Shown here: positions 3,125-29,850 of the stretch, piece after piece | How the letters are laid out: every line of letters starts with the position of its first letter | How positions within the stretch are numbered: position 1 is the first letter of the stretch | Source: Planctomycetales bacterium | Lineage (GTDB): Bacteria > Planctomycetota > Planctomycetia > Isosphaerales > Isosphaeraceae | Direction: 5' to 3' | NCBI GenBank assembly: GCA_027451885.1 | Contig: DAIDHX010000254.1 | Span: 1 to 34,180 of the forward strand | Length of the DNA: 34,180 bases | The notes under the pieces: model-generated | What the model was told of the DNA's origin: nothing | The model's input: the letters and a program-made list of their open reading frames with translations, nothing else | Database searches by the model: none | Translations under genes and position numbers: made by a program

Positions 3125-3199
3125 CAGCCGGGCGTGATGTCACTAGGTCCGCGCGGTTTTGCCCGCGGGCTGTGTTGCGGCGTTGGTATCTCTGGCGAC

Positions 3200-8344: not shown

Positions 8345-11300
8345 ATGAACGATCACGAGCAAAAGCGAGCAAGCGCTGGGCGAATCGGAGCGATTCCGGC
8401 CCTGGGATTATCGCTCTTCTTCCTGTGTGCGCTTTTGCTTGGAACGCCCGGCCGGCGCGAGCGCCACGAAGCCCGTGCCCAAACCGCGCCGCCGCCAAGG
8501 CCGCGGCAGGTCTCCGCGCCCGTCAATCCGTTCCCGTTCCCGCCAGAGCTCCACGGAGTCGACCTGCTGCATCAAACGCCGCAGGCCGCTGCCGCCAAGA
8601 GTGCGGGGTGCGTGGTCTGCCACACCGGCCAATCGGAGCCCCATGGCAAGCCCGAGACGGTACGCCTCGGCTGCATCGACTGCCATGGCGGCAATGCGCA
8701 GGCGGCAACCATTGCCGAGGCGCATGTCGCCCCGCGCTTCCCCGCGGCCTGGGGCAGCTCCGCCAATCCCGTCCGCTCTTATACGCTCCTCAACCACGAG
8801 TCTCCCGAGTTCATTCGCTTCGTCAATCCCGGCGATCTGCGTGTGGCGCACCTTGGCTGCGGCACGGCCAACTGCCACGGAGAACAGGTACTTCAGGTCC
8901 GCAAGAGCATGATGACGCACGGGTCGATGCTCTGGGGATCAGCGCTTTACAACAACGGTGCTGTGCCGTTCAAGGCCGCGCGGTACGGTGAGAGCTACAG
9001 CATGAACGGCGTGCCCCAGCGCATGCAGACGGTGCCGCCGCCGACCGAGTTCGAGATGAACTGGAAGGGCGTCGTGCCTTTTCTTGATCCCTTGCCTCGG
9101 TTTGAGGTCTCGCAACCTGGCAACCTGCTCCGCATCTTTGAACGCGGCAGGCGCGACCCCCAGGAAGTCGGCATTCCGAATCCGCTCGAAGATCCCGGCA
9201 AGCCCAAGGCCGGCCTGAGCGCGCGTGGTCTGGGCACGCGCAATCGAACCGATCCCGTCTTCGTCGGCTTGCAGAAGACACGCCTCTTCGACCCCACCTT
9301 GAACTTTCTGGGGACGAACGACCACCCGGGCGACTTTCGTTCCAGCGGCTGCACCGGTTGCCATGTGATCTATGCCAACGACCGCTCACCGGTGACCTCC
9401 GGACCCTATGCGACCTATGGACATCAGGGCCTCAGCGCTCAGACCGATCCGACCTTGCCCCGCAACGAGCCTGGGCATCCGATCGATCATCGCTTCACGG
9501 TGGGTATTCCCACCAGCCAGTGCCTGGTATGCCATATCCATCCTGGCACCAACGTGCTCAATTCGTACGCCGGCTACATGTGGTGGGACGAGGAGACCGA
9601 CGGCGAGCTGATGTATCCTCCACGGCAGAAGCACCCCACGGCCGAGGAGTTCACGCGGTCGATGATGTCGAATCCGGACGAGACGGCCGCGCGTGGGAAC
9701 TGGTCGGACCCGCAGTTCCTGGAACGCGTGGCGGAGCTCAACCCGCAGGCCCGGCACACCCAGTTCGCCGATTTTCATGGCCATGGCTGGATCTTCCGGG
9801 CCGTGTTCAAGAAGGACCGGCACGGGCAGTATCTGGATCACCGGGGCGAGCCTGTGCAAGGCGTGTCGCCGGCAGCGCTCATGGCCGCGGTCAACCTGCC
9901 GGCCGAGCTCAAGGAACGCTATCGCGAAAAGAACGCCAGGGCCGCGCAACAGAAGGCGTTTGACAGGGCGGAGGCCGGGCGCGACGGCCTGCCCGTGCAC
10001 CAGCTTGATATCCACCTGGAAAAGGGCATGCACTGCGTGGACTGCCACTTCATCCAGGATGCGCACGGCAACACCAAGCTCTACGGCGAGGTTCGCGCGG
10101 CGATCGAGATCCAGTGCGTCGACTGCCACGGCACGGTCGGCAAACGGGCGTCGCTCATCACCTCCGGTCCGGCGTCGGATACCTCGGCGGCGGAATCGGG
10201 CAAGGGGGGGCGCGACCTTGGCGCGCTCCGCACGCCGTTTGGCGGCCGACGCTTCGAACGCCGGGGCGACACGATTCTCCAGCGCTCGCTGGTCGAGCCC
10301 GATCTGGTCTGGGAGATCAAACAAACGGCCGACGTCATCGACCCCAGATCGAAAAGTTACAACCGCAAGGCCCATCTGGCAAAGACCGTGCGATTCGAGG
10401 GCGATGAGCTGGTCTGGGGCGACCTCCCCAGGGATGGCGAGGCCGCCTGCGCGCACGCCAATTCCAAGATGAGCTGCATCGGCTGCCATTCATCCTGGAA
10501 TCCAAGCTGCTTCGGCTGCCACTTGCCCCAGCGCGCGAACAAGAAGATGCCGCAGCTCCACAATGAAGGCGATGTTACGCGTAATTATGTGTCGTACAAT
10601 TTTCAAACATTGCGCGATGATGTGTTTATGCTTGCGCGGGATGGCAACGCCACGGGTAATCGCATCGGGCCTGCGCGGTCGTCGTGCGCGATCCATGTGG
10701 GGTCGTATAACGCCAATCGCGAATCGATTTACGTGCAGCAACAGACGATCTCGGGCGAGGGGATGTCGGGCATTGCGTTCAGCACGAACGTGCCGCACAC
10801 CGTGCGCGCGGGCCTGCCGGTGGTCCACGACCCTTCGAGCCCCAAAAACGGCCGGGCCGAGAACGCCGCCGCCTACGCGCCAGGCCACAGCGACACCAAG
10901 GGCTGCACCGATTGCCATCTTTCGAAGAACGACGACAACAACGCGATCATGGCCCAGCTCCTCATGCATGGGACCAATTTCGTGAACTTCATCGGCCGTT
11001 ATTGCTGGGTGGCGTCCGGCGATCACGGATTGAACGCGGTGATCGTCACAGAGCGTGACGAGCCCCAGGCGGTGCTCGGCAGCACATTGCATCGCCTGGC
11101 TTATCCGGAAAGCTTCCGCCAGCATGTCGAGCGCGGCGGGCGCATATTGCACGCGCACGAGCATTCGGGACGCGACGTCGCGGAGCGCTTCCGCCATCCC
11201 GACATCCGCTCGATCCAGGCGCGTGGAGAGTATCTGTACGCGGCCTGCGGCGAGCTTGGGTTGCGAATCTTCGATATCGCCTTCATCGATCACAAGGGCT

Positions 11301-12358
11301 TCTCGGAGCGAATCGTCACCGCGCCCGTCTCGCCACTTGGGCAGCGGTTCTACGTGCGCACCAAATTCGCCACGGCGGTCGCCGCCCCCACCACCATCGC
11401 GCCCGACCCCACGCGGACCCATCGCCCAGAAAACTTCGAAGCCCCCGTGCACCCGCTCTACGCCTATGTCTATGTGACCGATCGCGAGGAAGGGCTGATC
11501 CTCGTCCCCGCCGGTACTCTGCTCGATGGCAATCCCCTCAACAACTTCCTCGGCCGCGAGCTCACCTTCAACCCCGACGGCGTTCTCACCGGCGCCCGGG
11601 CGATCACCATCGTCGGTACATATGCATATATTTCGTGTAATGCCGGGCTCGTGGTGGTGTCGCTCGAAGATCCCAAACATCCGAGCGTCACAGCGATCGT
11701 GGGCGAGCCGTTGCTCAAGCACCCCCGCGCTGTGCAGGTCCAGTTCCGTTACGCCTATGCCTGCGACGCCGAGGGCGTGAAGGTCCTGGACGTGACAGAC
11801 ATGGCCCACCCCCGGTTTGTCTCTGCGCTTCCGATCCACGATGCCCGCAACATCTACCTGGCGCGGACGTACGGGTATGTCGCCGGCGGCAAGGAGGGGC
11901 TGATCATCCTCGACATCGAGCACCCCGAAGCGCCTCGGATCGATCAGGTTTACAACGCGGGCGGATGCATCAACGACCTCAACGACGTGAAGCTGGGGAT
12001 CACCTACGCCAGCGAGTTCGCCTATCTGGCGGATGGCGAGAACGGCCTGCGGGTGCTCCAGCTTACGTCGCCGGAGACGCCGGGCACGCAGGGATTCAGT
12101 CCGCGCCCATTCCCCGAGCTGATCGCCCACTTCAAGCTCCCGCTGGGCGCGCACGCCTATGCGATCTCGGAGGGCGTTGACCGCGACCGGGCGGTGGACG
12201 AATCTGGCAACCAGATCGCGGTGTTTGGCCGTGTCGGGGCGCGGCCGCTCAATCTTGAAGAGCAGCGCAGGCTTTACTTGCACAACGGCCGGATCTGGAA
12301 AACGGGGGAAGATCCTGACGATCCGATTTATCGCTTTGTGAAGGCTGCTGGGCGCTAG
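8345..12358 (+). CDS. Exported decaheme cytochrome c fused to an LVIVD-repeat beta-propeller
   Basis: A very large (1337-residue) exported protein. After an N-terminal hydrophobic segment (about 16-34) there are nine CXXCH heme sites starting at residues 89, 110, 336, 393, 564, 591, 711, 722 and 854, plus one CX4CH site (CGTANCH) at 172. From about residue 930 the sequence changes to LVIVD-type propeller repeats: [78 protein letters not shown] and [15 protein letters not shown]. The heme half should carry electrons and the propeller may dock a partner or substrate. AGGGAGG lies 10 nt before ATG 8345. The stop overlaps that of the convergent pentaheme gene. It is likely periplasmic or cell-surface; the substrate is unknown. 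Confidence 0.9.
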
Positions 12359-13908
12359 CGTCCGGCGGTCCGCGTGCCCCGCGCGGGATCGAGCGCCGCG
12401 GCGATTCTGGCAAAACGCGTGCGATAGAGCCTGGCGTCAAAGCTGCCGGCGATCCTGAGCCTGGCGGCGAGCTCGGGCTCGATGAGGCGCTTGATCTTCG
12501 CGGGTGGGAGGTCGAGCGCGAGCTCGGTCCCGAGCGCATCAAGCTCGCGCAGGATCGTGGCGTTATGCTCGCCTCGCTCGCGATAGATGGCGCGAAACGC
12601 CCAGGCGACCTGGCGGGCGGAATCGTGGTCGGGAACAATCGCGGCCTGGTTGCAAAGACGCAGGAGAACCTTGTGGGCGAATGCGGTATCAATCGTGGTT
12701 CGCTCGATCGCTTCGAGCGATCGATCGAGCGCGGCGACGGCCTTGCGCGCGACCGGGACGATGGCCCGCGGTGCGCCGAAGGGCGCGTGGTTCAGCAGCC
12801 GCGTGAGCTCGGCGACGGCGCTTTCGTCGCCACTTCCGCTGGGCGCGAAGGGGGTCGCGGGTGTGGAGTCCGAGCTCAGATTCGCCAACGCGAGCGACCA
12901 GTCGGAGATCGTCGGCCGGCCCGGAGCCCCGCCGATTCTCCGCACCTGGCGCGGAGACGCGCCCAGACCCTGGCTCAGCTCGTGATGGCAGGCAGTGCAG
13001 TCGAAGCGCGCAAAGTCCGGCCAGGGAGCGATCAGATCGCCTGGCCTGCCGTGCTCCGCCTGATCGGCCAGCAACTTGATCGATTGCCGCAGCTCAACCA
13101 ACCCGCCCAGCACCACTTGCCGTGTCTCTTCCAGGGGCTCCGCGTTCACCTTGCCGAGACGAGCCCTGCGCTCCGGCGTTTTCTCACGCAGGGTCTGCCA
13201 GTGACGGGGCTCGAGATCGCAGTAACTGGCGACTTCCAGGCTCGGCAGCGGCGGATGCCCCGCCGCGTACATCGCGTGCGTGAGGACCTTCCCCTGCTCG
13301 TAGTTGCCGATATGGCACGAGGCGCAGGTTTCGGCCCTGCGAACCGGGTTCCACAAATCCTTCATGCCGTAGCGTGATTCTTTCTGGGCGCGATCGAGCG
13401 AGCGCCAGGGACCGCTGGCACGCTGGTGCATCTCAACCCACTCTGCGCTCGCGCCATGGCACGCCACGCAGGTGACGCCGTCGGTCTCGCGATCGTAAAG
13501 CTGCACGTCGACACCCTTCGTCGCGACCCCGTGGCAATTCACGCAGGCGTCGAGCTTCGTCACGTCGGTGCCGAGCAGCTCGCCCATCCGCTTGCCCCGT
13601 TCGCCCACGAGCGCCTTGAATGCCAGCCCGTGCCTGTCTTTAGCATCAAAAGTAAGGTACTCGTTCATCTGACAGATCCAGCCAGCGCTTTCCGCGGGCG
13701 TGGCCAGCTTTTCGCTGCTGCCGGCGTGGCAATTTGCGCACCACCGCGCACCGTAGACGAAGGGCGTGAGCTTGCCGTCCCCCGCCGCCCGCCGCGAGGT
13801 CGACGCCTGGGGAGCCGTTCCCTGGCCAACCGCGACCGCACAGGCGCCAAGGGCTCCTATCAGCAACAACGCCATCGCTGCGCGCTTTCGATCGGATCCG
13901 ACAGCCAT
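12355..13908 (-). CDS. Exported pentaheme cytochrome c (paralogue B, cytochrome c-554-like)
   Basis: A 517-residue exported cytochrome with a signal sequence (residues 11-29) and five CXXCH sites starting at C57, C122, C147, C195 and C304. The heme-binding N-terminal half also has YAAGHPPLP, whose His is a likely distal heme ligand. The C-terminal 200 residues are heme-free and helical. Order and surrounding motifs (CHGA/CHGP, CHIG/CHVG, AAGHP, CHHEL/CHHDL) match the pentaheme gene at 14809, so the two are paralogues. The start is ATG 13908, with GGAG 9 nt upstream; ATG 13929 is an alternative. It is the last gene of pentaheme A - phosphodiesterase-like - pentaheme B, with 65 bp before it. 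It likely passes electrons in the periplasm; no catalytic role is evident. Confidence 0.88.
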
Positions 13909-13973
13909 CGAGCGATTCTCCGTCACCATTCGCCCGGTCGAAACGACCGAGTCACCCCAAGCAGCCGCGGTTC

Positions 13974-14744
13974 CTAGAAGTCATACGCCTCGCCCGGCCG
14001 CCCAATACGGATGTTCGGCATGCCAAGACCGGTTAGCTCCGCAATCACACGCGCTGCGAACCGAGGCTTGATGTGCACCGCGTAGAACGGCACGGAACTG
14101 GGCAGCTTGCGCGCCTCGGTCGCGAACATCGACGGCGTGAGATGCTTCGAGATCCGCGCCAGCCCCTCCATGGCGTCAGGAAACGACGCCTCGAGAAAGA
14201 CCGCCTTCAAATCGGGCGCGCGGGCCGCTTCCCGCCAGAATTCCTCAGTCGGCCCCGTATCGGAGGGGATCGCGACCGTCGCCCCCGGCCGTGAAATCAG
14301 GAAACCGAGCGTCGGGATCACATGATCGACAGGCACTGGCAAAAGGCGGAGTCCATCCACATCGACCGCCCTGTGCGGCTCGACGATGCTCGTGCGCACG
14401 AAGGGCAATCCCTTTTCCGACATGCCGATGAAATCCGGCCAGACGCGGTCGTTAAAGACATCCCTGCGGAGAATCTCAAGGGTTGTGGCCTCGGCGTGCA
14501 GGGTCACGGTGTGGTCGCCGGACTGAAAGACGGTCTCGAGAAAGACCGGCAGTGACGCGATGTGGTCCATGTGCGCGTGCGTGAGAAACACATGCCGCAC
14601 CCGGGCCTGCACCCCCACATCGCCCAGGAAACCCAGGCCCCCCGCGTCGATCGCGATCGAGTCATTCACCAGATAGGACGAAAGGAAGAATCCCCTCGTA
14701 TCCTGCCCCTCGGTGACCGCGGACGGAACCAGGGTGATTTTCAC
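13974..14744 (-). CDS. Metallo-beta-lactamase-fold hydrolase resembling class II 3',5'-cyclic-nucleotide phosphodiesterase
   Basis: A 256-residue cytoplasmic MBL-fold enzyme. The metal motif is HAHMDH (H56, H58, D60, H61), with H141 (VDHVIPTLGF), D162 (IPSDTGPTEEFW) and H224 completing a dinuclear site. The segment FLEASFPD...LARISKHLTP (residues 183-204) resembles the E-x-S-F...GHLTP signature of class II phosphodiesterases (yeast PDE1, Vibrio CpdP), which hydrolyse cAMP. GTG at 14744 is chosen because GGAGG lies 6 nt upstream and the core begins MKITLVPSAV; a longer frame starts at 14801. It sits between two pentaheme cytochrome genes, with a nucleotide cyclase about 5 kb away. Cyclic-nucleotide hydrolysis is an inference; another MBL phosphodiesterase activity is possible. 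Confidence 0.72.
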   Translation of the reverse strand: MKITLVPSAVTEGQDTRGFFLSSYLVNDSIAIDAGGLGFLGDVGVQARVRHVFLTHAHMDHIASLPVFLETVFQSGDHTVTLHAEATTLEILRRDVFNDRVWPDFIGMSEKGLPFVRTSIVEPHRAVDVDGLRLLPVPVDHVIPTLGFLISRPGATVAIPSDTGPTEEFWREAARAPDLKAVFLEASFPDAMEGLARISKHLTPSMFATEARKLPSSVPFYAVHIKPRFAARVIAELTGLGMPNIRIGRPGEAYDF

Positions 14745-14808
14745 GGGCCACCTCCACTCCGTCCCTGGGACGCTACCAGGCATACTTGCATAAAGGTACA
14801 ATCACGCT

Positions 14809-16344
14809 TTATCTTGCTGAAGAGTGATTTTGAACGGATGGCGATCGGTCTGGAGCTCGGGCGTCGTCCAAAATCGAGGCCAGCAGTCCGGCCTTCTGGC
14901 GCTCGAGCCAGGTGGTGGGCGCGTGCCCGGTTGCTCCTGCCGACGCGGGGTCGAAGTTGCTCGGGCTGTCGAGCGCGTGCGGGAAGCCGAGCGATTCTCG
15001 CAGGGCGTCCAGCCGTTCGTTTAACTGTTGCTGCTGCGCCGCGGCCTCGGGAGCAAGCGCAACCCAGGATTGATAAAGCGGCACAAGCGCCAGGTATCGC
15101 GCAGCAGCCTCATCCCAGCTTGAGTCGTTGCGATTGGCCTCGATCAGATCGATCAGCCGCTTGACCTCAGCCGCGTTGAACGGCCGCTGTGAAGCCTGCC
15201 TGGCTGCGCGAGCGAGCTTGCCCGCGACCTCGCCCAGGCCCGCGCCTGGTACATCTTGCCTGGGGCTGAGCGCCTCGAGTGGTCCGGTCAGGCCGCGGAT
15301 CGAGGCCAGGGCTCCCTGCAGATCCGGCGTCGCGTCAAGAGACAGAATGCGCTCGAGGTCGTTCGCAAGCAGCCGGCCGTTCCAGGCGGGCGCGCCGGCC
15401 GTCTTGCGACCGGGGTCGAGTCTCCGCCGCCAGGCCTGGTCGCGCAGATCGTGATGGCAGGAAAAGCAGCCATATTCGGTGAACTCGGGCCAGACGGCGG
15501 GATTTCCCGCGGTCGTCTGGGCCCGCTCCTTTGTGAGCGCGAGCGTGGCCTCGAGCTGGCTCAACCTGCCGACGGCCCAGGCACGAACGGGGAAGTCGGG
15601 GGCGGCCTGGCGCGTTTCTCGCGAGCCGTTCTTGCCCTTCTCGACCCAGTGTGGAGGCATGTTCGCCAGAAAGGCCGAAAGCTCGAAATTCAGGCGGGGA
15701 TGCCCGGCGGCGATGAGGTCGTGGTTGACGTCACGCCCCGCGGACTCCGAAGTGGGGCTCGCACCAACGTGGCAGCCCACGCATACCTTCGACCTGGACG
15801 CGAGATCCTCGGTATTCCACATCCCGAGTTTCTCCTTTTCAGACCAGGCCGCGTTCTGCCAGTCCTGAGTCGTATGAGGACCGATCCAGCGCCCGGCTGG
15901 ACCGTGGCACGATTCGCAACCCACGCCGTCGGAATCGAGCCAGGCGGTTCTGGCAAACAGCTCGGCCGGGCGCGGCGTCGCATGGCACGCCAAACAACGC
16001 GCGTCCTCGTGCGCAGGCTTGTAACCCTCAGCGCCCCCCGCGAGATTTCTCACAATCCGCTGCGATCGCACGTCAAAAAGCACCTGGTACGCCCGCGAAT
16101 GCGCGTCGTCCGAAAGCCAGGTCGTGTGCTCATTCCGGAGCACGTGGGTGTTTTCTGACTGCGCGTTAATACTGCCGTGACACGCCGTGGCCGAGCACGA
16201 ACCTGAGCCGCGATACGCCGTCGCCGCGCGGTCCCCGGCCGGCAAGGGGACAAGCCGGGTGCTCGCGCGGGGCTCCTCGCCTCGCGCCCAAAGCGCGACC
16301 GCACCCACAGCGGCGATCACAGGCATCCAGCGGGTTATGGTCAT
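14809..16344 (-). CDS. Exported pentaheme cytochrome c (paralogue A) with one CX4CH site
   Basis: A 511-residue exported cytochrome. A short hydrophobic signal (residues 7-20) is followed by an unusual first heme site CSATACH (C50, CX4CH) and four CXXCH sites at C117, C143, C188 and C293. LIAAGHPRL (residues 210-218) offers a conserved distal His. The C-terminal 210 residues carry no heme and are mostly helical. Its plan matches paralogue B downstream, where the first site is a normal CXXCH. The ATG at 16344 has GGGACAGGG just upstream. It leads an operon with the phosphodiesterase-like gene (64 bp on) and paralogue B. Electron transfer in the periplasm is inferred from the heme content. Confidence 0.88.
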   Translation of the reverse strand: MTITRWMPVIAAVGAVALWARGEEPRASTRLVPLPAGDRAATAYRGSGSCSATACHGSINAQSENTHVLRNEHTTWLSDDAHSRAYQVLFDVRSQRIVRNLAGGAEGYKPAHEDARCLACHATPRPAELFARTAWLDSDGVGCESCHGPAGRWIGPHTTQDWQNAAWSEKEKLGMWNTEDLASRSKVCVGCHVGASPTSESAGRDVNHDLIAAGHPRLNFELSAFLANMPPHWVEKGKNGSRETRQAAPDFPVRAWAVGRLSQLEATLALTKERAQTTAGNPAVWPEFTEYGCFSCHHDLRDQAWRRRLDPGRKTAGAPAWNGRLLANDLERILSLDATPDLQGALASIRGLTGPLEALSPRQDVPGAGLGEVAGKLARAARQASQRPFNAAEVKRLIDLIEANRNDSSWDEAAARYLALVPLYQSWVALAPEAAAQQQQLNERLDALRESLGFPHALDSPSNFDPASAGATGHAPTTWLERQKAGLLASILDDARAPDRSPSVQNHSSAR

Positions 16345-16474
16345 GCCCTGTCCCTACCGATCGCGCGTCAAGCACCCACCCAGTCGCCACCACGAAAATC
16401 CAGGCGCGTACCTTCACTAGTTTGGCCAGTCTAAGCAGTATATCACCTGGGACGAGTGAAATCTGGTTGCGAAT

Positions 16475-17284: not shown

Positions 17285-17418
17285 GGAAGGACTCGCCCGG
17301 GTTCGCGTCGCTTTCGCGGGGAACCAGGTCCCCATCGCAATCTGGTAATGTATGATACTTTGCCATATTCGCGGCACTGAGTCCAAAACCTGGCGGTCGA
17401 TGTTGCGATTGAGAAACG

Positions 17419-17442
17419 CGTGCGCCTTCGCGTTGGCGCACG
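17419..17442 (+). promoter_or_regulatory. Perfect 8-bp inverted repeat before the cytochrome b-like operon
   Basis: CGTGCGCC (17419-17426), an 8-nt loop and GGCGCACG (17435-17442) form a perfect stem ending 16 nt before the ATG at 17459. It could be an operator half-site pair or a 5'-UTR hairpin that limits ribosome access, since no clear Shine-Dalgarno sequence is seen there. Its role is inferred from position only. Confidence 0.4.
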
Positions 17443-17458
17443 ATGCGGAATTTGTCCC

Positions 17459-18430
17459 ATGCTTGTTTTTGACCGTGAGAACTGGCCCTATCACCGCGGC
17501 TGGTTTCTGTTTGTGGTTGCGGCCTCGCTCGCCGCGGCTGGCTGGTATCTGGTTTATGGATTCGCGGGCGGTTCATGGGCATGGCCCAGCGGCGCGAGCC
17601 CGCCCGGGTTCGTCTATGGGGCGATCGGCGGCCTGATCACGGCGTTCGAGATGTTGCTCTGGCCGCGTAAATCCCTCTGGCGCGGCTGGCGGATTGGGCG
17701 CACCAAGCTCTGGATGACCATGCACCTCTGGCTGGGATTGCTCACCCTCCCGCTCCTTTTGCTCCACGGCAGCTTCCAGTTCAACGTGAGCGCGTCAGCA
17801 CTTGCGGCGGTGCTCATGTGGCTGCTGGTCGCGGTGGTGGGGAGCGGCGTCTTCGGGCTGGTGGTTCAGAACATTGTGCCCCGTGTGATGTTCGAGCAGC
17901 TTCCGGCGGAGACGATCGCCTCGCAGATTCCCCGCGTGCTGGAAACCTACCGAGCCGACGCCCTGCGCATGGTCGAGGTCGTCTGCGGTATCGCGCCCAG
18001 CGAGTCTGTCGCGGCTGGCGAGGCCAGAGGCATGGTGGCCGTGGAGACAGTGCGGCAGGTCGGGCGCGTGCAGGGGCTCGTCGTCGAGGCCGAGCTCGAA
18101 GCCGAATTCACACCTGGCTCCGAGTCGCTGCTTGAATTTCACCGCAGACATGTCGATCCTTATTTAAGCGCTCCGGTGGGAACCGCGCTCGAGCTCGGTT
18201 CGCCTCGGCAGGCTGTCCTGCTCTTTGAGGAGGTCAAGCGGCAGATTCGCCCGAGCGCTCATCCCGTCGTCGACCGGTTGGCGGATCTTTGCAACCAGCG
18301 CAGGCAGTTTGATCTTCAGCTCCGGCTCCATCGTTTGCTGCATACCTGGCTGGGAGTGCACGTGGCCCTGTCGGTTGCGCTTTTCGTGCTGATGATTGCT
18401 CACATTTTCCTGGCCATGAAATATGTCTGA
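17459..18430 (+). CDS. Cytochrome b-like integral membrane protein
   Basis: A 323-residue membrane protein with about five transmembrane segments: residues 14-34 (WFLFVVAASLAAAGWYLVY), 50-70, 90-108 (MHLWLGLLTLPLLLLHGSF), 115-140 and a C-terminal helix (LGVHVALSVALFVLMIAHIF). His residues paired along helix 3 (MHLW...LLHG) and in the last helix (LLHTWLGVH...IAHIF) could bind two b hemes, as in quinone-reactive cytochrome b subunits. Between the fourth and fifth helices is a soluble region of about 140 residues. Family assignment is tentative. The ATG at 17459 is preferred over GTG 17420. Its stop overlaps the decaheme gene start by 8 bp (18423-18430), so the two are translationally coupled. 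It probably links the quinone pool to the multiheme cytochromes. Confidence 0.6.
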   Translation: MLVFDRENWPYHRGWFLFVVAASLAAAGWYLVYGFAGGSWAWPSGASPPGFVYGAIGGLITAFEMLLWPRKSLWRGWRIGRTKLWMTMHLWLGLLTLPLLLLHGSFQFNVSASALAAVLMWLLVAVVGSGVFGLVVQNIVPRVMFEQLPAETIASQIPRVLETYRADALRMVEVVCGIAPSESVAAGEARGMVAVETVRQVGRVQGLVVEAELEAEFTPGSESLLEFHRRHVDPYLSAPVGTALELGSPRQAVLLFEEVKRQIRPSAHPVVDRLADLCNQRRQFDLQLRLHRLLHTWLGVHVALSVALFVLMIAHIFLAMKYV

Positions 18431-20006
18431 TACGAGCAAAATTCGCCGCTCGCGGATCGACCTGGGCTACCACAAGCGAGGTGATGCGCTTGGGCGTTGG
18501 CGCGGGCGGCTGGTGCTCTTTGCGCTGACGGCCGCGGGGCTCTGGCTCCTGCTCGCCCCCTCGTCAGGCCAGGGCAAGGGTGCGAATCTGCGGCTGTTTC
18601 AGCACGCGAGCCTGGCCTCGAAGGGGCCGCTCACGCGTGCTCACGCTGCCTGGGACAACCAGTGCGAAGCCTGCCACACGCCGTTCCAGGGCATTAACAC
18701 CTCGCGCTGGTCGCCCTCGCTGAACAGGGCATCGACCGCGGGGGACCAGAATTGCCAGACCTGCCACGCCGGACCCGCGCATCATCCCAACCAGATCGCC
18801 AGCGAGGTTCCTTCGTGCGCGGAGTGCCATCGCGATCACCGCGGGCGCGACTTCCGCCTCGCCGCCACGCCCGACGCCGGGTGCACAGGCTGCCACGCCG
18901 ACCTCGGCCGCCATCGCAACCCGAGTGCGAACTCCGCCGCCATCGCCAATGTCACGGCGTTTGATGCCGAGCATCATCCCGCCTTCACGCTGCCCGCTTC
19001 GCTCGCCGGCAAGCACCCGGGGCGGATCAAGTTCAGTCACAAGCGACACCTGACGCCGGGGCTCGTGCTCGAGCAGGGGGGAGCGCCCTTCACACGCGCG
19101 AATTTGGCCGCCGCGGATCGCACGCGTTACGGCGGTCCCGCAGGTCGTGAGGCCGACCCAGTTCAGTTGACCTGCGCCTCGTGCCATCGGCTCGATGATG
19201 CGACCGACGCCACCCCGCGGTTCGCGAACCAGATTCCGCGCCTGCCTGGCGAGGCGATGCTGCCGGTCTCGTACGAGTCAAGCTGCCGGGCCTGCCATCC
19301 GCTCGCCTTCGACAGGAACGCGCCCACTGTGGAGGCGCGTCACGGGCAGGAGCCGGCTGCACTTGTCGAGGAGATCAATCGCTTCTACAAGGCCCAGGCG
19401 CTTGAAGAGAAGCCCGATCTGCTGAATCGATTTGTGCCGCCGCAACCCCAGCCTGGCCGATCCGCGGCCGAGCTGGACACGGTGCGCGACAGGGTTGAAG
19501 CGAAGACGCTCATGGCGGTGAGGCGTTTCTTTGGATCAGCGGTGAGCGAGGCCGACCGCCAGGGCGCTGGCTTGCCCTTGAGCCGCGGCGGCTGTGTGGA
19601 ATGCCACGAGCTCTCGAGCACACCGGGGCCCCTGACGAGCCTGGCCGCTGCCCGCAACCTGGCGCTCGAGCCAGTGGCCATTCGCTCGCTCTGGTATGAG
19701 AACGCGCGCTTCAATCACGCCAGCCATCGCGCTGTCGAGTGCGCATCGTGCCACGCGGGCGTCGAGCAAGCCGCCGATCAGTCAAAACCGCACATGCCCG
19801 GCATCGAAAGCTGCACCACGTGCCATGCTCCCGCGGCGAGTCCAGGCGGGCGATCGACTGGAGGTGCGGGATTCGACTGCGTGGAGTGCCACCGTTATCA
19901 CGCGACCGACGTCGCTGCGCACGGACTGGGCTCACCGCTTCGCAAGCCCGTCGCCGCGCTTTCTATCGAGCAGTTCCTTTCAGGTGCGCCACCGGCCCGC
20001 CCCTGA
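18423..20006 (+). CDS. Membrane-anchored decaheme cytochrome c
   Basis: A 527-residue cytochrome. A basic N-terminus is followed by one membrane segment (residues 30-46, LVLFALTAAGLWLLLAP) with no obvious cleavage site, so it is likely anchored with its heme domain in the periplasm. There are ten CXXCH sites: CEACH (C81), CQTCH, CAECH, CTGCH, CASCH, CRACH, CVECH, CASCH, CTTCH and CVECH. KFSHKRH and RFNHASHR provide distal His ligands, a pattern of cytochrome c3/c7-type modules. The ATG overlaps the end of the cytochrome b-like gene, and the cyclase follows after 53 bp. It probably accepts electrons from the cytochrome b-like partner and passes them outward. No catalytic motif is seen. Confidence 0.9.
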   Translation: MSDTSKIRRSRIDLGYHKRGDALGRWRGRLVLFALTAAGLWLLLAPSSGQGKGANLRLFQHASLASKGPLTRAHAAWDNQCEACHTPFQGINTSRWSPSLNRASTAGDQNCQTCHAGPAHHPNQIASEVPSCAECHRDHRGRDFRLAATPDAGCTGCHADLGRHRNPSANSAAIANVTAFDAEHHPAFTLPASLAGKHPGRIKFSHKRHLTPGLVLEQGGAPFTRANLAAADRTRYGGPAGREADPVQLTCASCHRLDDATDATPRFANQIPRLPGEAMLPVSYESSCRACHPLAFDRNAPTVEARHGQEPAALVEEINRFYKAQALEEKPDLLNRFVPPQPQPGRSAAELDTVRDRVEAKTLMAVRRFFGSAVSEADRQGAGLPLSRGGCVECHELSSTPGPLTSLAAARNLALEPVAIRSLWYENARFNHASHRAVECASCHAGVEQAADQSKPHMPGIESCTTCHAPAASPGGRSTGGAGFDCVECHRYHATDVAAHGLGSPLRKPVAALSIEQFLSGAPPARP

Positions 20007-20059
20007 GCGCTGCTCCAGAAACAACATCCACCGAAAACACCTCGCGGAGCTCGAACAAA

Positions 20060-21904
20060 ATGGCCCAGACATGGATGGTGTCCGCATACAACGACCGGAT
20101 GCTGAGCATGCTCAAGGAGTGCCCCGCGCCGGTGGAGTTCGGGCGCCAAAGCAGCCGTGCCGGCGAGGAGCTTTTTCACCCAATCCCCCAGTCCGAAGGC
20201 GGATGCCGGCTCGCCATCGCGCCCATCGACGATCTCACCATCTCGCGCCGGCATGCGCGGGTTGAACCGGTCGACTCCGAGCGCGTGCTCGTCCAGAACA
20301 TCAGCGAGAAGAATACGATCAGCTTCGAGGATGGCTTTCAGCTCAGGCCCGGGCGCGAGCGCGAGGTCACGCTCCCCGTGGTGCTCAAGCTGGGCGTGAA
20401 GGTCCTGCGCGTGGAGTCCACCGGTCCGCGCGAGGAATCGACTTTGCGGCTGATCCAGTCGCTCGAGGAGCCCACCCTGGTCCCGGGCGCTGAATCACGC
20501 TGGGCGCGGTCCGCGAATCTCAATCTCGAAGCCGCTGGCACCGTGGACTCGAAAGGCGTCTTCGACTGGCTGCGCGTCATGATCCGCGTGCTCCAGAGCG
20601 CGGCGACCGATACCGACTTCTTCCAGAAAGGCGCCCAGGCGATCGTCGAGGTCGTCGGTCTCGACATGGGGCGCGTGCTCACCCGCGACGGCGACGACTG
20701 GAAAACGGCTTCCTTCTTCCCTCTCGAGGAAGAAGAATACGAACGCACGAATCCGCCCAGCCGCATGGTGCTTTCGCGGGTCATCGAAGAGAAAAAAGTC
20801 ACCTGGTTCGACCCGATGAAAATGGACGAGGACTGCTCGAGCCTCGCGGGCGTGACCTCGGTCGTCGCCGCCCCGGTGCGCGACCGAGCAGGCGAAGTGA
20901 TCGCGATTCTCTACGGCGAAAGGCGCTTGCAGGCGCTGATGACGGGCGCTCGGCCAGTCTCTCGGCTCGAGGCCATGGTGCTCGAGGTCCTGGCCGTGGG
21001 GCTTGCCGGCGGACTGGCCCGGCTCGAGCAGGAGCACGCTGCGCTCGCGCTTCAAACCCAGTTCGAACAGTTCTTCACGCCGGAGCTCGCCCGCTCGCTC
21101 GCCGAACATCCCGAGCTGCTCAACGGCCGCGACATGGAAATCACCGTCCTTTTCTGCGACATCCACGGCTTTTCCCGGATCACCCGCAAGCAGCCCCCAG
21201 CCTTCACCATGGAATGGATCCAGGACGTGCTTTCGACGATCTCGGAGTGCGTTCTCTCGTCCCAGGGCGTGCTCGTGGACTACATCGGCGACGAGGTCAT
21301 GGCGATGTGGGGCGCGCCCACGCTGCAGCCGGACCACGCCGAGCGCGCGTGCTACGCTGCGCTCGACATGATTGCTGCGCTCAAGTGTCTCGACGAGCGC
21401 TGGCGCGACCGGCTGGGCGAGCCGATGGGGCTGGGGATCGGCATCAACACCGGCATCGCACGCGTGGGCAACACCGGCTCCAGGCGAAAATTCAAATACG
21501 GCCCCCTCGGCGACACCGTCAACGTCGCCAGCCGCGTGCAAGGCGCTGCCAAGTACTTCAAGTCGAGCCTCGTCGTCACACGCGCCACACGCGACCGGCT
21601 CGGCCAGGAATTCCAGCTCCGCAGGCTGGGCGCTGCGCGGGTGGTCAATATCAGCGATCCAATCGAACTCTTCGAGCTGTTCCCGCCCAACCAGCCCGAC
21701 GCCTCAGCCGTCATCCAAAGCTACGAAGAAGCCTTGACCGCCTTCGAGAATCGCGAGTTTCTCACCGCCTCGACAATCCTGGGCCGGCTGGTCTCCTCGC
21801 ATCGCACCGACGGGCCTTCATTCGCGCTTCTCGCCCGCGCGATCGCGTACTATGTCGACCAGCCCGAAACCTTCGATCCCGCGTTTCGCCTGCCCGGCAA
21901 GTAA
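20060..21904 (+). CDS. FHA-GAF-class III nucleotide cyclase
   Basis: A 614-residue cytoplasmic signalling enzyme. The N-terminal FHA domain (about 20-120; FGRQSS, ISRRHARVE, VQNIS) should bind a phosphothreonine partner. A GAF-like domain follows (about 170-340), then a class III cyclase domain (about 360-535). Metal-binding Asp residues are D367 (FCDIHGFS) and D411 (DYIGDEVMAMWGAP). The GDTVNVASR segment supplies N488 and the transition-state R492. The base-selecting positions are unusual: the usual Lys before YIGD is D407, and the usual Asp/Thr is G481 in KYGPLGD, so cAMP versus cGMP cannot be decided. About 75 C-terminal residues resemble a TPR-like helical tail. GGAG lies 10 nt before ATG 20060. 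It is in the same unit as the decaheme and cytochrome b-like genes. Confidence 0.9.
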   Translation: MAQTWMVSAYNDRMLSMLKECPAPVEFGRQSSRAGEELFHPIPQSEGGCRLAIAPIDDLTISRRHARVEPVDSERVLVQNISEKNTISFEDGFQLRPGREREVTLPVVLKLGVKVLRVESTGPREESTLRLIQSLEEPTLVPGAESRWARSANLNLEAAGTVDSKGVFDWLRVMIRVLQSAATDTDFFQKGAQAIVEVVGLDMGRVLTRDGDDWKTASFFPLEEEEYERTNPPSRMVLSRVIEEKKVTWFDPMKMDEDCSSLAGVTSVVAAPVRDRAGEVIAILYGERRLQALMTGARPVSRLEAMVLEVLAVGLAGGLARLEQEHAALALQTQFEQFFTPELARSLAEHPELLNGRDMEITVLFCDIHGFSRITRKQPPAFTMEWIQDVLSTISECVLSSQGVLVDYIGDEVMAMWGAPTLQPDHAERACYAALDMIAALKCLDERWRDRLGEPMGLGIGINTGIARVGNTGSRRKFKYGPLGDTVNVASRVQGAAKYFKSSLVVTRATRDRLGQEFQLRRLGAARVVNISDPIELFELFPPNQPDASAVIQSYEEALTAFENREFLTASTILGRLVSSHRTDGPSFALLARAIAYYVDQPETFDPAFRLPGK

Positions 21905-21955
21905 GCCCGCGCCAGCGATGTTTCCCCGCCAGGCGCACGCCTTCTGATCCTCGCT

Positions 21956-24463
21956 TCAACCGCGCGATCGCACCAGATCCAGGAGCTCGACGCCTTTCAT
22001 GCGATGGGCGGCGTCGTGCGGGCACGCGTAAACACAGCTCGGTTCCGACTTCGGCCCCAGGCTGGTGCAGAGGTCGCATGTGGTCGCCTTGCGCACATTC
22101 GCCTTGAGTGCCTTATCCATTTGTTCAACCATGTTGATATTGCCATAAGGGCAATTGTGCGCGCATAGCCCGCAGCCGATGCACCAGTTCTCGATGTGGA
22201 TTTCGCTGGTTTCCCGCCGCCGGATCGAGCCCACGGGGCAGCCGACCATGCAGTAAGGATCGAGGCACGAGCGGCACGAGCTTGCGACCAGGAAGTGGTC
22301 GAAGCGCAGCCCTTCGCGAATGAGCCGCGTTACGCCTTCGTGGGTATCCGCGCAGGCTTTGGTGCACTCGTCGCAGCGGGTGCACTTGTGGAGGTCGAGC
22401 ACGAGCAGGCTCTGCGCTTCCTGCAAGCCTTGCGACAAAAACGAGTCGAGCGAGTTGTTGCGCACGTCGAGCTGATCCTTCAGATTGCTCTCGATGCGCT
22501 GGCGGGCGATGTCGATGACCGACTGTTTGAGCGCGGGTGAACGGTCGAGTATGGCGCGGAAGTCCTCAGGCGCCACGCGCACCAGGTCGACGTGGTCAAG
22601 CGCTGTGCAGGAGGCGGTGCGCACGCCGCCGGGGGCCAGATCGCCCAGCTCCGCGAGTCCTGAGAGCACGCCGATCTCGCCGATGTAGCCGCCGGGGCCG
22701 ACGTAACTGAGCACGCGGTCGCCGCCGGGCCGGGCCTGGGTGACCTTCACAAACCCGGTGCGCACCAGATAGAGGCCGTCGACCGCGGGCGCGCCCTGCC
22801 GCAAGATGACCTCGCCAGGCTCACACCGCCTGAGGGTCACGCGCGGCCGGAGCGCATCGATGATGCGATTGAACTCGGCCTCGTCGTTCTTGAGAGGCGC
22901 GAACAGAGGCACGCTGCGCAAATGGCCGTCGATCGCCCGGGCGCGATACTTGGCCTCCAGGTCGCGGCGGAATGACGGGCTGCGCTGCATGATGTAGAGC
23001 ACATTCCGCAGCATCTCGAGCACTGTCGTATCCTCGGCCGCGGCCACCGTCGCCGACCGGGGATAGTTGCTCATGCACGTCATCTCACCGAAAAGCTCCC
23101 CCGCGCCCAGAGTCGCGCGCGGCTGGCCATACGGCAACGACACAAGCGCATCGACCGGGATAAAGTCACGCTCACGCTCGTCTTGCCGGCCGATGAAACG
23201 CGTCGTGAAGCGCCCAATCGCGCCCAGAAAGCCCCCCCGCGGCTCGTTCTCCACGCGATCCGCCGGCGTTCGGATGTAAATATCAACAGACCCGTTCTCG
23301 ATGAAGAACGCGGTCGAGCCGTATTCTCCCTCGCGGCAGATGATCTCCCCTTTGCGGTAGACGCGCCTCTTGACCGCCTGAATGTTCGACCGCAGAAACG
23401 GCCGCGAAACCCCCTCGAAGGCCTGGCGAATCTGGGGGATCTCGTGCTGGACGAGCGACTCGACCTTGACATCCTGGCCGGAGGCGAGCTCGGTTGCGAT
23501 CACCCGCCTGTGCACAAGCGCGCCGGTGGGGCAGTCGTCGGTGCATTCGCCGCAGGCGACGCAGCTCGAGCTCCCCATGGGCGCATCGAGGTCGAACGCG
23601 ATCCGCGCCTGGTATCCCTTGCCCATGCGGCGGATCACGTGGTTTTCCTTGATGACGTCGCAGCCGCGAACGCAGCGGTCGCAAAGAATGCACGCGTTGT
23701 GATCGACGGCGATCACGAGCGACGATTCATCCCGCGGGCGCTCCGGCCGGCTCGGGAAACCGTCCCCCTTCACGTCGAAGCGGGTGGCAAGCGCCTCGAG
23801 CTCGCAATCACCCGGATGCTGCCGCTCCTTGGCGCATGGGCTTGGGTGATCCGACATCAGAAGCTGCACCAGCGTTTTGACCGCCCCTTCGATCCGCTCT
23901 CGCGCATGTGCGTCGGGAGAGGCGATCGTGCTCACGATCATGCCGTCTTCCACGCGATGCTGGCACGCGGGCAGCAGCTTGTCGTCGACCTCAACCTTCC
24001 CCGTCCGCCGGCGGAACCGGGCAAGCTGCACCACGCACACCCGGCAGACCGCCACGGGGTCCATGTATTTCGTGTGGCAGAGGATCGGGATCGGGTTCTT
24101 CCCCGCGCCCGGCGGCCTGCGCGACTCGCCCGACTCGTCGCCCAGGAGCGCACTCTCTTCTTGCTCATAACGCACACTGACGGCGTCGTAGATCGTGGTC
24201 GGGCGGGGAATCACCTCGCCATGGGCGTCGTACCGCGGCCGGCCTTGCTCGTCCGTGGCCACGACCGCCTTCTTCACCTTCACCGGCTTGCCGTCGATCT
24301 CGAGCGTGACTTCCTTCTCGAGCTCCTCGCGCGTGGCGGCGTCGTAGCGGATCAGGTGGCCGTCCACGTCGCGGGCGAACAGCCCCTCCTCGGACCACGA
24401 CCATTCCCAGCTCGTCTCGTCCCGATCCTGAACCTGCGCTTCGCTCCCTGGTGTCGTGCTCAT
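21956..24463 (-). CDS. Fusion: NuoG-like iron-sulfur head, two cyclic-nucleotide-binding domains, DmsB-like ferredoxin
   Basis: An 835-residue cytoplasmic electron-transfer protein. Residues 120-180 form a NuoG-type [2Fe-2S] site (C129, C140, C143, C167). Residues 206-220 resemble the His-Cys3 site but lack the middle Cys. Two [4Fe-4S] sites follow (C258/261/264/268 and C301/304/307/311). The first cyclic-nucleotide-binding domain (about 355-500) has a normal phosphate-binding cassette, FGEM...PRSATV, with E460 and R469. The second (about 515-640) keeps E596 and R615 but has about ten extra residues between them. The C-terminus carries four [4Fe-4S] motifs as in DmsB/NrfC subunits, starting at C694, C730, C761 and C796. 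It overlaps the NuoEF gene by ATGA (24460-24463), so the two are coupled and probably form a complex. Ligand gating of electron flow is an inference. Confidence 0.87.
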   Translation of the reverse strand: MSTTPGSEAQVQDRDETSWEWSWSEEGLFARDVDGHLIRYDAATREELEKEVTLEIDGKPVKVKKAVVATDEQGRPRYDAHGEVIPRPTTIYDAVSVRYEQEESALLGDESGESRRPPGAGKNPIPILCHTKYMDPVAVCRVCVVQLARFRRRTGKVEVDDKLLPACQHRVEDGMIVSTIASPDAHARERIEGAVKTLVQLLMSDHPSPCAKERQHPGDCELEALATRFDVKGDGFPSRPERPRDESSLVIAVDHNACILCDRCVRGCDVIKENHVIRRMGKGYQARIAFDLDAPMGSSSCVACGECTDDCPTGALVHRRVIATELASGQDVKVESLVQHEIPQIRQAFEGVSRPFLRSNIQAVKRRVYRKGEIICREGEYGSTAFFIENGSVDIYIRTPADRVENEPRGGFLGAIGRFTTRFIGRQDERERDFIPVDALVSLPYGQPRATLGAGELFGEMTCMSNYPRSATVAAAEDTTVLEMLRNVLYIMQRSPSFRRDLEAKYRARAIDGHLRSVPLFAPLKNDEAEFNRIIDALRPRVTLRRCEPGEVILRQGAPAVDGLYLVRTGFVKVTQARPGGDRVLSYVGPGGYIGEIGVLSGLAELGDLAPGGVRTASCTALDHVDLVRVAPEDFRAILDRSPALKQSVIDIARQRIESNLKDQLDVRNNSLDSFLSQGLQEAQSLLVLDLHKCTRCDECTKACADTHEGVTRLIREGLRFDHFLVASSCRSCLDPYCMVGCPVGSIRRRETSEIHIENWCIGCGLCAHNCPYGNINMVEQMDKALKANVRKATTCDLCTSLGPKSEPSCVYACPHDAAHRMKGVELLDLVRSRG

Positions 24464-26322
24464 GTGGAAGCTCCCGCCCAGTCATGCTCGTAGAGCGAAG
24501 CCATGGGTTTCGATGCCGACGTGCCGAGACCGCAAATGGAGGTCTGCTCCATGGCAAGCTGGAGCTCGCGGACCGTGGCGAAAAGCGACTCGCGCTCGCG
24601 AAGGCCGGTGGGCGATTGCAAACGCTCACCGATCAACACCAGCTTTTGCGTGCCCACCCGGCAAGGGACGCACTTGCCGCAGGTTTCGTTGCGGAAGAAC
24701 CGCGTTGCGTTCACCGCGATGTCGAGAATCCGCTCGGCGGCCGAGACGCCAGGCACGGCCGCCACGGCCAGCAGCCCCGCGCCCAGCATCAGCCCCAGGT
24801 CGTCGAATTCCGCCTTGTCGAGCGGGATCTCGCGCAGGTCGATCTCGGTCCGGCCCGCGGGAAAGCGCGCACGCCGTTTCGGCGGCAGGTCGGCCGGGGT
24901 GAGCCGCGCGGGCAAGAACCCGCCCGACGGCCCCGAGGGCATGAACGCCAGCAGCGGCAGGCCGTCTCGCATGCCGCCGGCCATGTCAATCAGCTCGCCG
25001 ATCGTGATGCCCGCGGGCACCTCGAACACCCCTGGCTTCGCCACGTCGCCGCACAGCGAGAAAAACCGCAACCCGCGCCCCCGCGGCCAGCGGTCCGGCT
25101 TGTCGTCCGGCCTGCGCTTCGCCAGATACCAGGCCGATTCCGCCACGCCGCTGTCGCGATACCAGACGCCCCCTTTGAGCAGAATCGCAGGCACCCAGGC
25201 GAAGGTCTCCACGTTGTTGAGCAGCGTGGGACAGTTAAAGAGCCCGTTGGCCTCGATCACCGGCGGCCGGTTGCGCGGCTCGGACCGATGCTCCTCAATC
25301 GCCTCGATGAGGGCCGATTGCTCGCCGCAAACGTACCCGCCAGGGCTCGTGAACGCCTCGAGCTCGAACGCCTGCCCCGTGCCCAGCACGTTCGGCCCGA
25401 CCACGCCGAGCGCCCGCGCCCGCTCGATCTCCGCCTCCACGGCGTGAATCTGGTCGTGATACTCGTGGCGGATGTACACATAACCGCGCGTCGCACCCAC
25501 CACAAGCGCGCCTGTCACCATCCCCTCGACGATCAGGTGCGGCGCCCGCAGAAAAAGCTCGCGATCCTTGAACGTGGACGGCTCGCTCTCGTCGCCGTTG
25601 CAGACGACGTACGCCTGGTCGGCGCGTTCGGTCTCGTCGCGCACCTCGCCCCATTTGGTGAACGCCGGCCGCCCCGCGCCCCCCATCCCGCGCAGGTCGG
25701 CCGTCCTGAGCTCGTCGAGCACATACTGCCCCGCCGCCTTGCGCGCGGACAGACCCCCCGACTCGCGGATCTTCGCGGCAAGAGCCATCGCCGCGGAGTA
25801 GGGGGCAGGCGCGTCCGCCCCCGCTTGCTCGCCGTAGGGATCGATCTTCCAGCCCAGAGGTGCGTGATCCACGTGGTCGTGGGGCACAGGCTGACCGCCC
25901 AGGTGCGCCCGCGCGATGTCTCGCAGCCGGTTCGCGCAGTCCCCAACCGAGCGCTTCTCGATGATCCGCGACTCATCCGCCGCACCCGCGCGATGCAGCT
26001 CCACAAGCGCCGCGGGCGCGCCGTCGCACCGGCCCAGGCACGAGACCCCCTCAACCTTCACCCTCCGCTCACCGCCAAGCTCGGCGGCCACAGCCTCAAG
26101 CGCGGCCGTGCACTCCACAGCCCCACGCAGGTGGCACGCCTGGTCCCGGCAAACCCGCACCGTCAGATCCGGCGGCGGCTGGCGGCGAAAATGCGGGAAA
26201 AAGCTGATCACCTCGTGCAGGCGCGAAAGCGGCACGTCAAGCCGGGCCGCAAGCGCCTCGAGCTCTTCCCGAGGCAGCCAGCCAACTCGATCCTGGATCT
26301 CTCGAAGCCGAGGAATGAACAT
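24460..26322 (-). CDS. NuoE-NuoF fusion, NADH-oxidising flavoprotein subunit
   Basis: A 620-residue fusion. The N-terminal NuoE-like thioredoxin fold binds [2Fe-2S] through C58, C63, C95 and C99 (CRDQAC, CLGRC). The NuoF part has RGMGGAGRPAFTKWGEVR (FMN), CNGDESEPSTFKDRE (NADH/FMN) and GGYVCGEQSALIEAIEEHR. A C-terminal [4Fe-4S] site is formed by C548, C551, C554 and C597 (ETCGKCVPC, ICGLG). It should oxidise NADH (or reduce NAD) and hand electrons to the coupled iron-sulfur protein. No membrane subunits of complex I are present, so it resembles the diaphorase module of soluble hydrogenases or formate dehydrogenases. ATG 26322 is preferred over TTG 26334. It is the first gene of a two-gene operon. 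Confidence 0.9.
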   Translation of the reverse strand: MFIPRLREIQDRVGWLPREELEALAARLDVPLSRLHEVISFFPHFRRQPPPDLTVRVCRDQACHLRGAVECTAALEAVAAELGGERRVKVEGVSCLGRCDGAPAALVELHRAGAADESRIIEKRSVGDCANRLRDIARAHLGGQPVPHDHVDHAPLGWKIDPYGEQAGADAPAPYSAAMALAAKIRESGGLSARKAAGQYVLDELRTADLRGMGGAGRPAFTKWGEVRDETERADQAYVVCNGDESEPSTFKDRELFLRAPHLIVEGMVTGALVVGATRGYVYIRHEYHDQIHAVEAEIERARALGVVGPNVLGTGQAFELEAFTSPGGYVCGEQSALIEAIEEHRSEPRNRPPVIEANGLFNCPTLLNNVETFAWVPAILLKGGVWYRDSGVAESAWYLAKRRPDDKPDRWPRGRGLRFFSLCGDVAKPGVFEVPAGITIGELIDMAGGMRDGLPLLAFMPSGPSGGFLPARLTPADLPPKRRARFPAGRTEIDLREIPLDKAEFDDLGLMLGAGLLAVAAVPGVSAAERILDIAVNATRFFRNETCGKCVPCRVGTQKLVLIGERLQSPTGLRERESLFATVRELQLAMEQTSICGLGTSASKPMASLYEHDWAGAST

Positions 26323-27354: not shown

Positions 27355-27399
27355 GACGATGTATCCCCGGGCTGCAGGTTGGCTGGTAAATCCGTGCCC

Positions 27400-28548: not shown

Positions 28549-28617
28549 CGCCTGATCCTTACCGAGAAAAACCTCGATCTCACGCCCGCCACGGCCCGCC
28601 CTCGGAACCAGGAGCCG

Positions 28618-29667: not shown

Positions 29668-29850
29668 CGTCGCACATCCGATCCTTGAGAGGAGCGGCCC
29701 GCCGCGCTCGCCGCAGCTCGGCCGCCTGGGGATGATCACTTTACGCACCAGGCGCCCGCGACGCGAGTCCCATGCTCCGCCGCGGGCGCGGTGACTTCCG
29801 GCCGCAAGCGCCGGGGCAGGGCCCCGCGCTCGCCATCACGTCGATCCCTG

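Follow-up and report, generated by a model that had tools for sequence, protein, structure and literature searches.

A predicted cyclic-nucleotide receptor within the iron–sulfur subunit of a putative NADH–cytochrome conduit in Planctomycetota

A gene island in an Isosphaeraceae MAG appears, with a probability of about 0.58, to encode an inner-membrane NADH–cytochrome conduit that carries a cyclic-nucleotide receptor in its iron–sulfur subunit; the receptor would bind a cyclic nucleotide and probably gate the conduit. We scanned the island protein by protein within the window, the whole 34,180-nucleotide stretch of DNA that was analyzed. The evidence consists of domains, heme and cluster ligands, pocket residues, gene neighborhoods, and swaps of the NADH module. 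From these we infer a physical complex, the direction of electron flow, the binding and identity of the nucleotide, gating, a surface location, and the phosphodiesterase activity of one island protein.

The receptor resides in protein H (21956–24463, minus strand), which joins an N terminus of NuoG/HoxU type, two cyclic nucleotide–binding (CNB) domains, and a C-terminal polyferredoxin with four 4Fe-4S cysteine sets. The first-pass annotation of this DNA had placed two CNB domains inside an iron–sulfur protein, and a PF00027 match (E 1.7e-32) together with the 4Fe-4S domains confirmed it. The NuoG match of H is confined to the N-terminal part of NuoG. Across 53 aligned H proteins, the CNB1 pocket (GE...R; G459, E460, and R469) is invariant (53/53), as are all 16 C-terminal cysteines, and the CNB1 Glu and Arg are retained in Sphingobium. 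The corresponding CNB2 residues, E596 and R615, are present in this H and in 36 of the 53 proteins across the family; their loss in the NqrF-type subfamily counts against our best explanation. The H model matches the tandem CNB domains of PKG with cGMP (4z07; Foldseek E 4.6e-16), and it also matches parts of NuoG and HydA. Judged by its fold and by the Glu/Arg of the phosphate-binding cassette, H would contain CNB domains of the nucleotide-binding type. A degenerate CNB domain was ruled out for CNB1 by the invariant pocket and accepted for CNB2 of the NqrF-type subfamily.

Overlapping H is protein I (24460–26322, minus strand), a NuoE–NuoF fusion for NADH, FMN, and Fe-S. This assignment, also made earlier, held up against Pfam, with matches to Complex1_51K (2.5e-36), the 2Fe-2S thioredoxin-like domain (1.1e-23), and NADH_4Fe-4S (8.7e-17). 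A canonical NuoF is encoded separately, elsewhere in the genome (C183). Unrelated NADH modules occupy the same place beside H: NuoEF at 19 loci and an NqrF-like FAD/NAD/Fer2 module at 14 loci; in Sphingobium, a Pyr_redox domain is fused to CNB-CNB-4x[4Fe-4S]. Respiratory complex I was rejected as the identity of this assembly, with NuoB/C/D/I and the membrane arm absent from the island proteins scanned.

The predicted membrane step is protein E (17459–18430, plus strand; start probably the ATG at 17459). Its His pairs H102/H116 and H314/H328 (numbered from the ORF start at 17420) are invariant in 41 of 41 sequences and lie 14 residues apart in two helices. The protein previously described as cytochrome b-like was recovered in place. 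With two transmembrane His-ligand pairs, E is predicted to be a diheme cytochrome b. It has no Pfam match, and a fold search gave no significant Foldseek match; a comparison with STEAP2 (Z 9.0, rmsd 5.4 over 151 residues) ranked amid unrelated helical rows. This fold result is one of the points against our best explanation. The Sphingobium relative of E retains the His residues, and its PF01292 match is below the cut-off.

Four multiheme cytochromes accompany E, and the earlier count of 10+5+5+10 heme sites was reproduced as 28 CxxCH and 2 Cx4CH motifs, 30 in all. Protein F (18423–20006, plus strand) is a decaheme cytochrome (10 CxxCH) anchored by a single N-terminal hydrophobic segment (aa 27–50). 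Protein D (14809–16344, minus strand; 4 CxxCH and 1 Cx4CH) is of c554 type, and B (12355–13929, minus strand; 5 CxxCH; PF13435/PF14522) is a pentaheme cytochrome of c554/c7 type. Protein A (8348–12358, plus strand; 9 CxxCH and 1 Cx4CH) is an exported cytochrome with 10 heme sites that also carries LVIVD repeats of the beta-propeller kind (PF08309, E 2.8e-13). Residue shuffles of these proteins yielded a mean of 0.006 to 0.034 motifs and a maximum of 2 per protein. We tried A as the selenite/tellurite reduction cytochrome ExtM and rejected it (NCBIfam NF040943 score 49.6, where >800 is required). An outer-membrane conduit of Mtr/Pcc type would combine a porin with a multiheme cytochrome embedded in it; the only porin seen, of the OprB family (32402–34078), lies outside the island.

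All named genes lie at the coordinates given by the first-pass annotation, which placed each signaling gene in a probable operon with a redox gene. The spacing of the genes fits three co-directional groups, D-C-B (minus), E-F-G (plus), and I-H (minus); inside the groups, neighboring genes are −8 to 65 nt apart. A promoter and terminator scan returned no more signals than chance.

In the electron path that we propose, the NuoEF protein I would oxidize NADH and pass electrons to the NuoG-type clusters of H, then to its C-terminal four-[4Fe-4S] polyferredoxin, and on to E. The two b hemes of E would take them across the membrane to the anchored decaheme F, and from there they would reach D, B, and A outside the cytoplasm. 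The sequences do not fix this direction, and the same complex could run in reverse, with the cytochromes fed by an external donor (Fe(II), sulfide, or reduced humics), NuoEF making NADH, and the nucleotide licensing the transfer; both directions have been implicated for MtrH/MtoC-type conduits (PMC6295460). We consider reverse flow unlikely, since no ion-pumping subunits that could drive uphill NAD+ reduction were found in the island and since I-H-E-F and D are present in Isosphaera pallida, whose described lifestyle is aerobic and heterotrophic.

The first-pass annotation had suggested looking for conserved co-occurrence in relatives; its proposal withstood that check, which recovered the receptor and redox core in numerous families of planctomycetes as well as in Sphingobium. 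We sampled 292 Planctomycetota genomes and found relatives of H in 58 of them, usually next to E, F, and a tetra- or pentaheme cytochrome, and the core D-H-E-F was found again in many families. A tetraheme relative of D adjoins H in most families, and relatives of A adjoin the core in one family (f17) and in Sphingobium. A search of plasmid records returned 12, from Sphingobium only.

The signaling genes follow this core less regularly. They lie near it well beyond the expectation from genomic density, but many families have the core without a cyclase or metallo-beta-lactamase gene nearby. When 51 genomes were examined, 14 had a class III cyclase no more than 10 kb from H, against an expectation of 0.9, and the same held for 5 of 20 families; the other 37 genomes have no cyclase within that distance, which weighs against our best explanation. 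The link at family level weakens to a P of 0.05 without the cyclases of doubtful catalytic residues (G040, G052, and G134), a further point against it. For C, the metallo-beta-lactamase protein, co-occurrence with H over 45 family genomes gave 15/5/6/19 (Fisher P 0.001). In 13 of 15 double-positive genomes, C is close to H or to the multiheme genes, versus 0 of the 4 H-less genomes examined. C is linked in several members of the Isosphaeraceae and in one distant family; at the H locus of f29, a distant family, C and a cyclase adjoin each other. The Sphingobium H-E-F operon also has a CpdA/SpdA-type metallophosphoesterase. A chance neighborhood is ruled out by the counts over 51 genomes, although the family-level figure is modest.

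These counts also bear on whether the CNB domains might be structural or dimerization modules that bind no nucleotide, with cyclase and metallo-beta-lactamase genes adjacent for other reasons. The degenerate CNB2 of one subfamily and the many loci with neither a cyclase nor a phosphodiesterase-like gene nearby would fit such a role, but the conservation of the CNB1 Glu/Arg as far as Sphingobium and the above-chance linkage of both genes make it very unlikely.

The cyclase is protein G (20060–21904, plus strand), with an FHA-like N-terminal region read from the sequence (Pfam detects FHA in relatives of G), a GAF-like stretch, and a class III domain at aa 360 to 528 (PF00211, E 2e-19), in agreement with its earlier assignment. 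Its motifs FCDI, GDE, and VNVASR would supply the two metal Asp and the transition-state Asn/Arg of class III catalysis. In canonical cyclases, Lys with Thr/Asp selects ATP and Glu with Cys selects GTP. G has Asp and Gly at these positions, its aligned PDB relative 2w01 has Glu and Gly, and the f29 relatives have Lys and Thr. The Asp/Gly pair is found in most of the other cyclases of Isosphaeraceae as well, whether or not they are linked, and we therefore dropped the argument that these residues mark a messenger specific to the locus. Only two class III cyclases are encoded in this genome, G being one.

Protein C (13974–14744, minus strand) is a candidate class II cyclic-nucleotide phosphodiesterase. 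It passes the Pfam PDEase_II cut-off (PF02112; E 5.8e-10, 39.3 bits against 23.7) with an alignment to a short stretch of the profile, and Lactamase_B_2 outscores PDEase_II. Its metal-ligand set (HxHxDH site) is complete and invariant in 19 aligned members. The top PDB match in a single-sequence search was yeast Pde1; a profile search gave RNase Z (2.8e-13) and Pde1 (2.5e-12). The class II signatures noted previously are upheld by the family cut-off and the metal site, but the profile cannot separate C from an RNase Z-like enzyme, which counts against our best explanation. The RNase Z reading is made less likely by a better RNase Z candidate in the same genome (on C144).

In our proposal, G would make cAMP or cGMP and C would probably remove it; the nucleotide, at CNB1 (and at CNB2 in this subfamily), between the iron–sulfur halves of H, would switch conduction or assembly. 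Alternatively, the conduit might report redox state, with the nucleotide level or the conformation of H signaling to transcription, or to kinases via FHA. The GAF and FHA-like parts of G, the FHA domains that an NqrF-like reductase (G046) and Sphingobium F also carry, and three further CNB proteins in the genome, possible responders to the same signal that count against our best explanation, are consistent with sensing. A receptor placed, by fusion, between the two electron-transfer halves of a single protein points instead to control of the electron path, and 10-heme conduits exceed the needs of a sensor, so we regard this alternative as quite unlikely. Together, the core, the CNB1 pocket, and the linkage partly support the redox and signaling reading of the first-pass annotation; the cyclase and metallo-beta-lactamase are not universal, and the latter is less firmly a phosphodiesterase than that reading had it.

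With odds slightly short of even, the second messenger is a direct allosteric switch: cAMP or cGMP on the iron–sulfur subunit would open or close NADH-to-cytochrome flow in a cross-phylum class of nucleotide-gated oxidoreductases whose NADH modules are interchangeable and which, in some lineages, have their own cyclase and phosphodiesterase. The core recurs in planctomycetes and Sphingobium, and a second messenger may therefore directly control respiration. A receptor in the electron path, if real, would let respiration be adjusted within seconds and without transcription, as in cyclic nucleotide–gated ion channels. Planctomycetota, in which the module is widespread, have multiheme cytochromes that are poorly understood, and the presence of the module in the cultured strain Sphingobium herbicidovorans MH (H homolog WP_231568103.1) makes the idea directly testable. 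Our search of an open-access library found no paper describing the fusion or the module.

Among known systems, the diaphorases NuoEFG, HoxEFU, and HydABC have the same NADH, FMN, and iron–sulfur relay as I and the N-terminal part of H, and the best relatives of this relay are NAD-linked formate dehydrogenases and HydA/NuoG. Unlike them, the island lacks a hydrogenase, a formate dehydrogenase, and the complex I membrane arm, and its relay is fused to CNB domains and a polyferredoxin. The inner-membrane quinone/multiheme modules of extracellular electron transfer, CbcL/MtrH/MtoC and ImcH, likewise pair a b-type membrane protein with multiheme c, but CbcL combines six helices with hemes c in a single polypeptide (PMC6295460), whereas the island uses separate proteins. 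It also adds an NADH module and, in the cytoplasm, a polyferredoxin with CNB domains. PKG/PKA regulatory subunits, the MlotiK1/SthK channels, mycobacterial Pat, and the EAL enzyme Bd1971, all among the PDB matches of H, share the CNB domain with phosphate-binding Glu/Arg. Nucleotide binding controls the output of each, and no electron-transfer protein is among these outputs. Cyclic-nucleotide control of bacterial respiration is known mainly at the level of gene expression, and in Shewanella, cAMP-CRP controls extracellular electron transfer. cGAMP does so in Geobacter (PMC6456294). In both organisms the control runs through gene expression, whereas in the island the receptor domains sit within the redox protein itself.

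The MAG containing the window is 6.18 Mb long and 98% complete, and the window is one entire contig. Sequence and domain analysis confirmed all genes named in the first-pass annotation, at their correct positions, and its count of about 30 heme sites in four cytochromes was borne out by 28 CxxCH and two Cx4CH motifs, of which sequence shuffling yields essentially none. Nine CxxCH and one Cx4CH lie in the LVIVD-repeat cytochrome A, five CxxCH in pentaheme B, four CxxCH and one Cx4CH in c554-type D, and ten CxxCH in decaheme F. H begins with a NuoG/HoxU-type N terminus, continues with two cyclic-nucleotide-binding domains (CNB1 and CNB2), and ends in a polyferredoxin that carries four sets of 4Fe-4S cysteines. 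G joins an FHA-like part to GAF and class III cyclase domains, C is of the metallo-beta-lactamase type, and the membrane protein E has no Pfam match. Judging by gene spacing, D-C-B, E-F-G, and I-H (I being a NuoE-NuoF fusion) are likely operons. Between D and E lies an ORF (16475-17494, minus strand) that could encode up to 339 aa; it has no Pfam match, and its N-terminal part, LENLENRLVMS, is like that of other exported planctomycete proteins. By eye, 755-3329 (minus strand) looks like an arsenic gene set, with an ArsM-like methyltransferase and a protein bearing a CTGNSRRS arsenate reductase/phosphatase-like motif. The island is flanked by sugar-catabolism genes, identified by eye (26515-31083, minus strand), and an OprB-family porin (32402-34078, plus strand).

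The island is most economically read as a membrane conduit linking NADH and cytochromes, with H as its iron-sulfur subunit and putative cyclic-nucleotide binder; nucleotide bound at the CNB domains would control the electron path through H. Such gating is suggested by the position of these domains between the N- and C-terminal clusters of H.

The first-pass annotation had proposed co-occurrence around the H fusion in other planctomycetes as a check. H relatives (E <= 1e-40, some matches covering the NuoG-type or CNB part alone) were found in 58 of 292 Planctomycetota genomes sampled and in 20 of 45 Isosphaeraceae. Across about 50 neighborhoods examined, E, decaheme F, and tetra-/pentaheme D/B repeatedly adjoin H, and an A relative is present at several. 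Variants in the distant planctomycete family f29 and relatives (loci L083, L086, L091, L092, and L094) carry 15- to 18-heme cytochromes instead of the decaheme and tetraheme. CNB1 residues G459, E460, and R469 and all 16 C-terminal cysteines are invariant in the 53 aligned H proteins; the CNB2 Glu and Arg are kept in 36 and degenerate in one subfamily. The NuoG-type cysteines occur in just 13 to 23 members, and thus the NADH part of H is an optional addition. The CNB2-degenerate subfamily is the one that carries the NqrF-like module (two of its loci, L097 and L099, have none nearby); CNB2 is intact in NuoEF-type H and in Sphingobium. The predicted structure of H is of moderate confidence (pLDDT 76); the tandem CNB domains of PKG and PKA, together with NuoG/HydA proteins, are its top structural matches. 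E, a predicted diheme cytochrome b, keeps four histidines, as two pairs with a spacing of 14, in 41/41 sequences; its model is confident (pLDDT 88) and found no clear match to any known fold in a structure search.

The same core is joined to three unrelated NAD(P)H-type modules: at 19 loci NuoEF, in company with the NuoG-type end of H; at 14 loci an NqrF-like FAD/NAD/2Fe-2S reductase; and, in Sphingobium, a Pyr_redox domain that is part of the H protein itself. None of these lies near H at about 19 further loci. That one such module has so often taken the place of another is the strongest argument for NAD(P)H as the predicted cytoplasmic-side partner. Since F carries an N-terminal anchor, the features are consistent with a path running, in either direction, through cytoplasm (I and H), membrane (E), and periplasm (F, D, B, and A). 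The Sphingobium operon, which takes the core into a second phylum, lies on plasmids AP027315.1 and NZ_CP020539.1. It encodes Pyr_redox-CNB-CNB-4x[4Fe-4S], an E relative in which the four His are conserved, an FHA-anchored decaheme (the FHA call is weak), and a metallophosphoesterase nearest SpdA/CpdA yet under their cut-offs. Glu and Arg are kept in both CNB pockets, and an A relative adjoins the operon.

Of the only two class III cyclases in the source genome, one lies within the island. A cyclase lies within 10 kb of H in 14 of 51 H-bearing genomes (expected 0.9), which are not independent of each other, and in 5 of 20 families (expected 0.85, P about 0.001); without the loci of doubtful catalytic residues (G040, G052, and G134), 11 genomes and three families are left (family P about 0.05). 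G has intact metal and transition-state residues; its substrate residues are Asp and Gly, a pair common to most Isosphaeraceae cyclases that therefore does not name the nucleotide made. FHA (phosphothreonine-binding) domains recur in three module proteins, namely cyclases (G and those of L092, L094, and L099), an NqrF-like reductase, and, with a weak match, the decaheme of Sphingobium; the two non-cyclase entries are L096:6899-8512 and L139:12476-14269. Kinase input into the module through these domains is possible.

C, the candidate class II phosphodiesterase, keeps all metal ligands across 19 aligned members. Its best PDB match by single sequence is yeast Pde1, with an FND..WPD stretch in common; by profile, RNase Z matches as well as Pde1. 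Among 45 Isosphaeraceae genomes, 15 carry both H and C, five H only, six C only, and 19 neither (P 0.001). C adjoins H or multihemes in 13 of the 15 double-positive genomes; in four H-less genomes examined it has no such neighbors. In one of these four, G295, also of the Isosphaeraceae, the C relative adjoins a response-regulator-cyclase fusion (L136:8656-10632), which supports a phosphodiesterase role; at the f29 H locus, an FHA-GAF-cyclase and a C relative adjoin each other. The local cyclic-nucleotide circuit proposed in the first-pass annotation thus stands in part: the cyclase is linked above expectation and H and C co-occur, but neither partner is universal. The local cyclase and phosphodiesterase-like protein are probable partners of the conduit, and in loci without a local cyclase the signal may come from cyclases elsewhere in the genome.

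The individual parts are known, and the kind, a membrane electron conduit with multiheme cytochromes, is known too; a search of the open literature turned up no description of the combination. Where cyclic nucleotides are known to control extracellular respiration, as with cGAMP in Geobacter (PMC6456294), they act on gene expression. If true, direct second-messenger gating of the conduit would be a new element.
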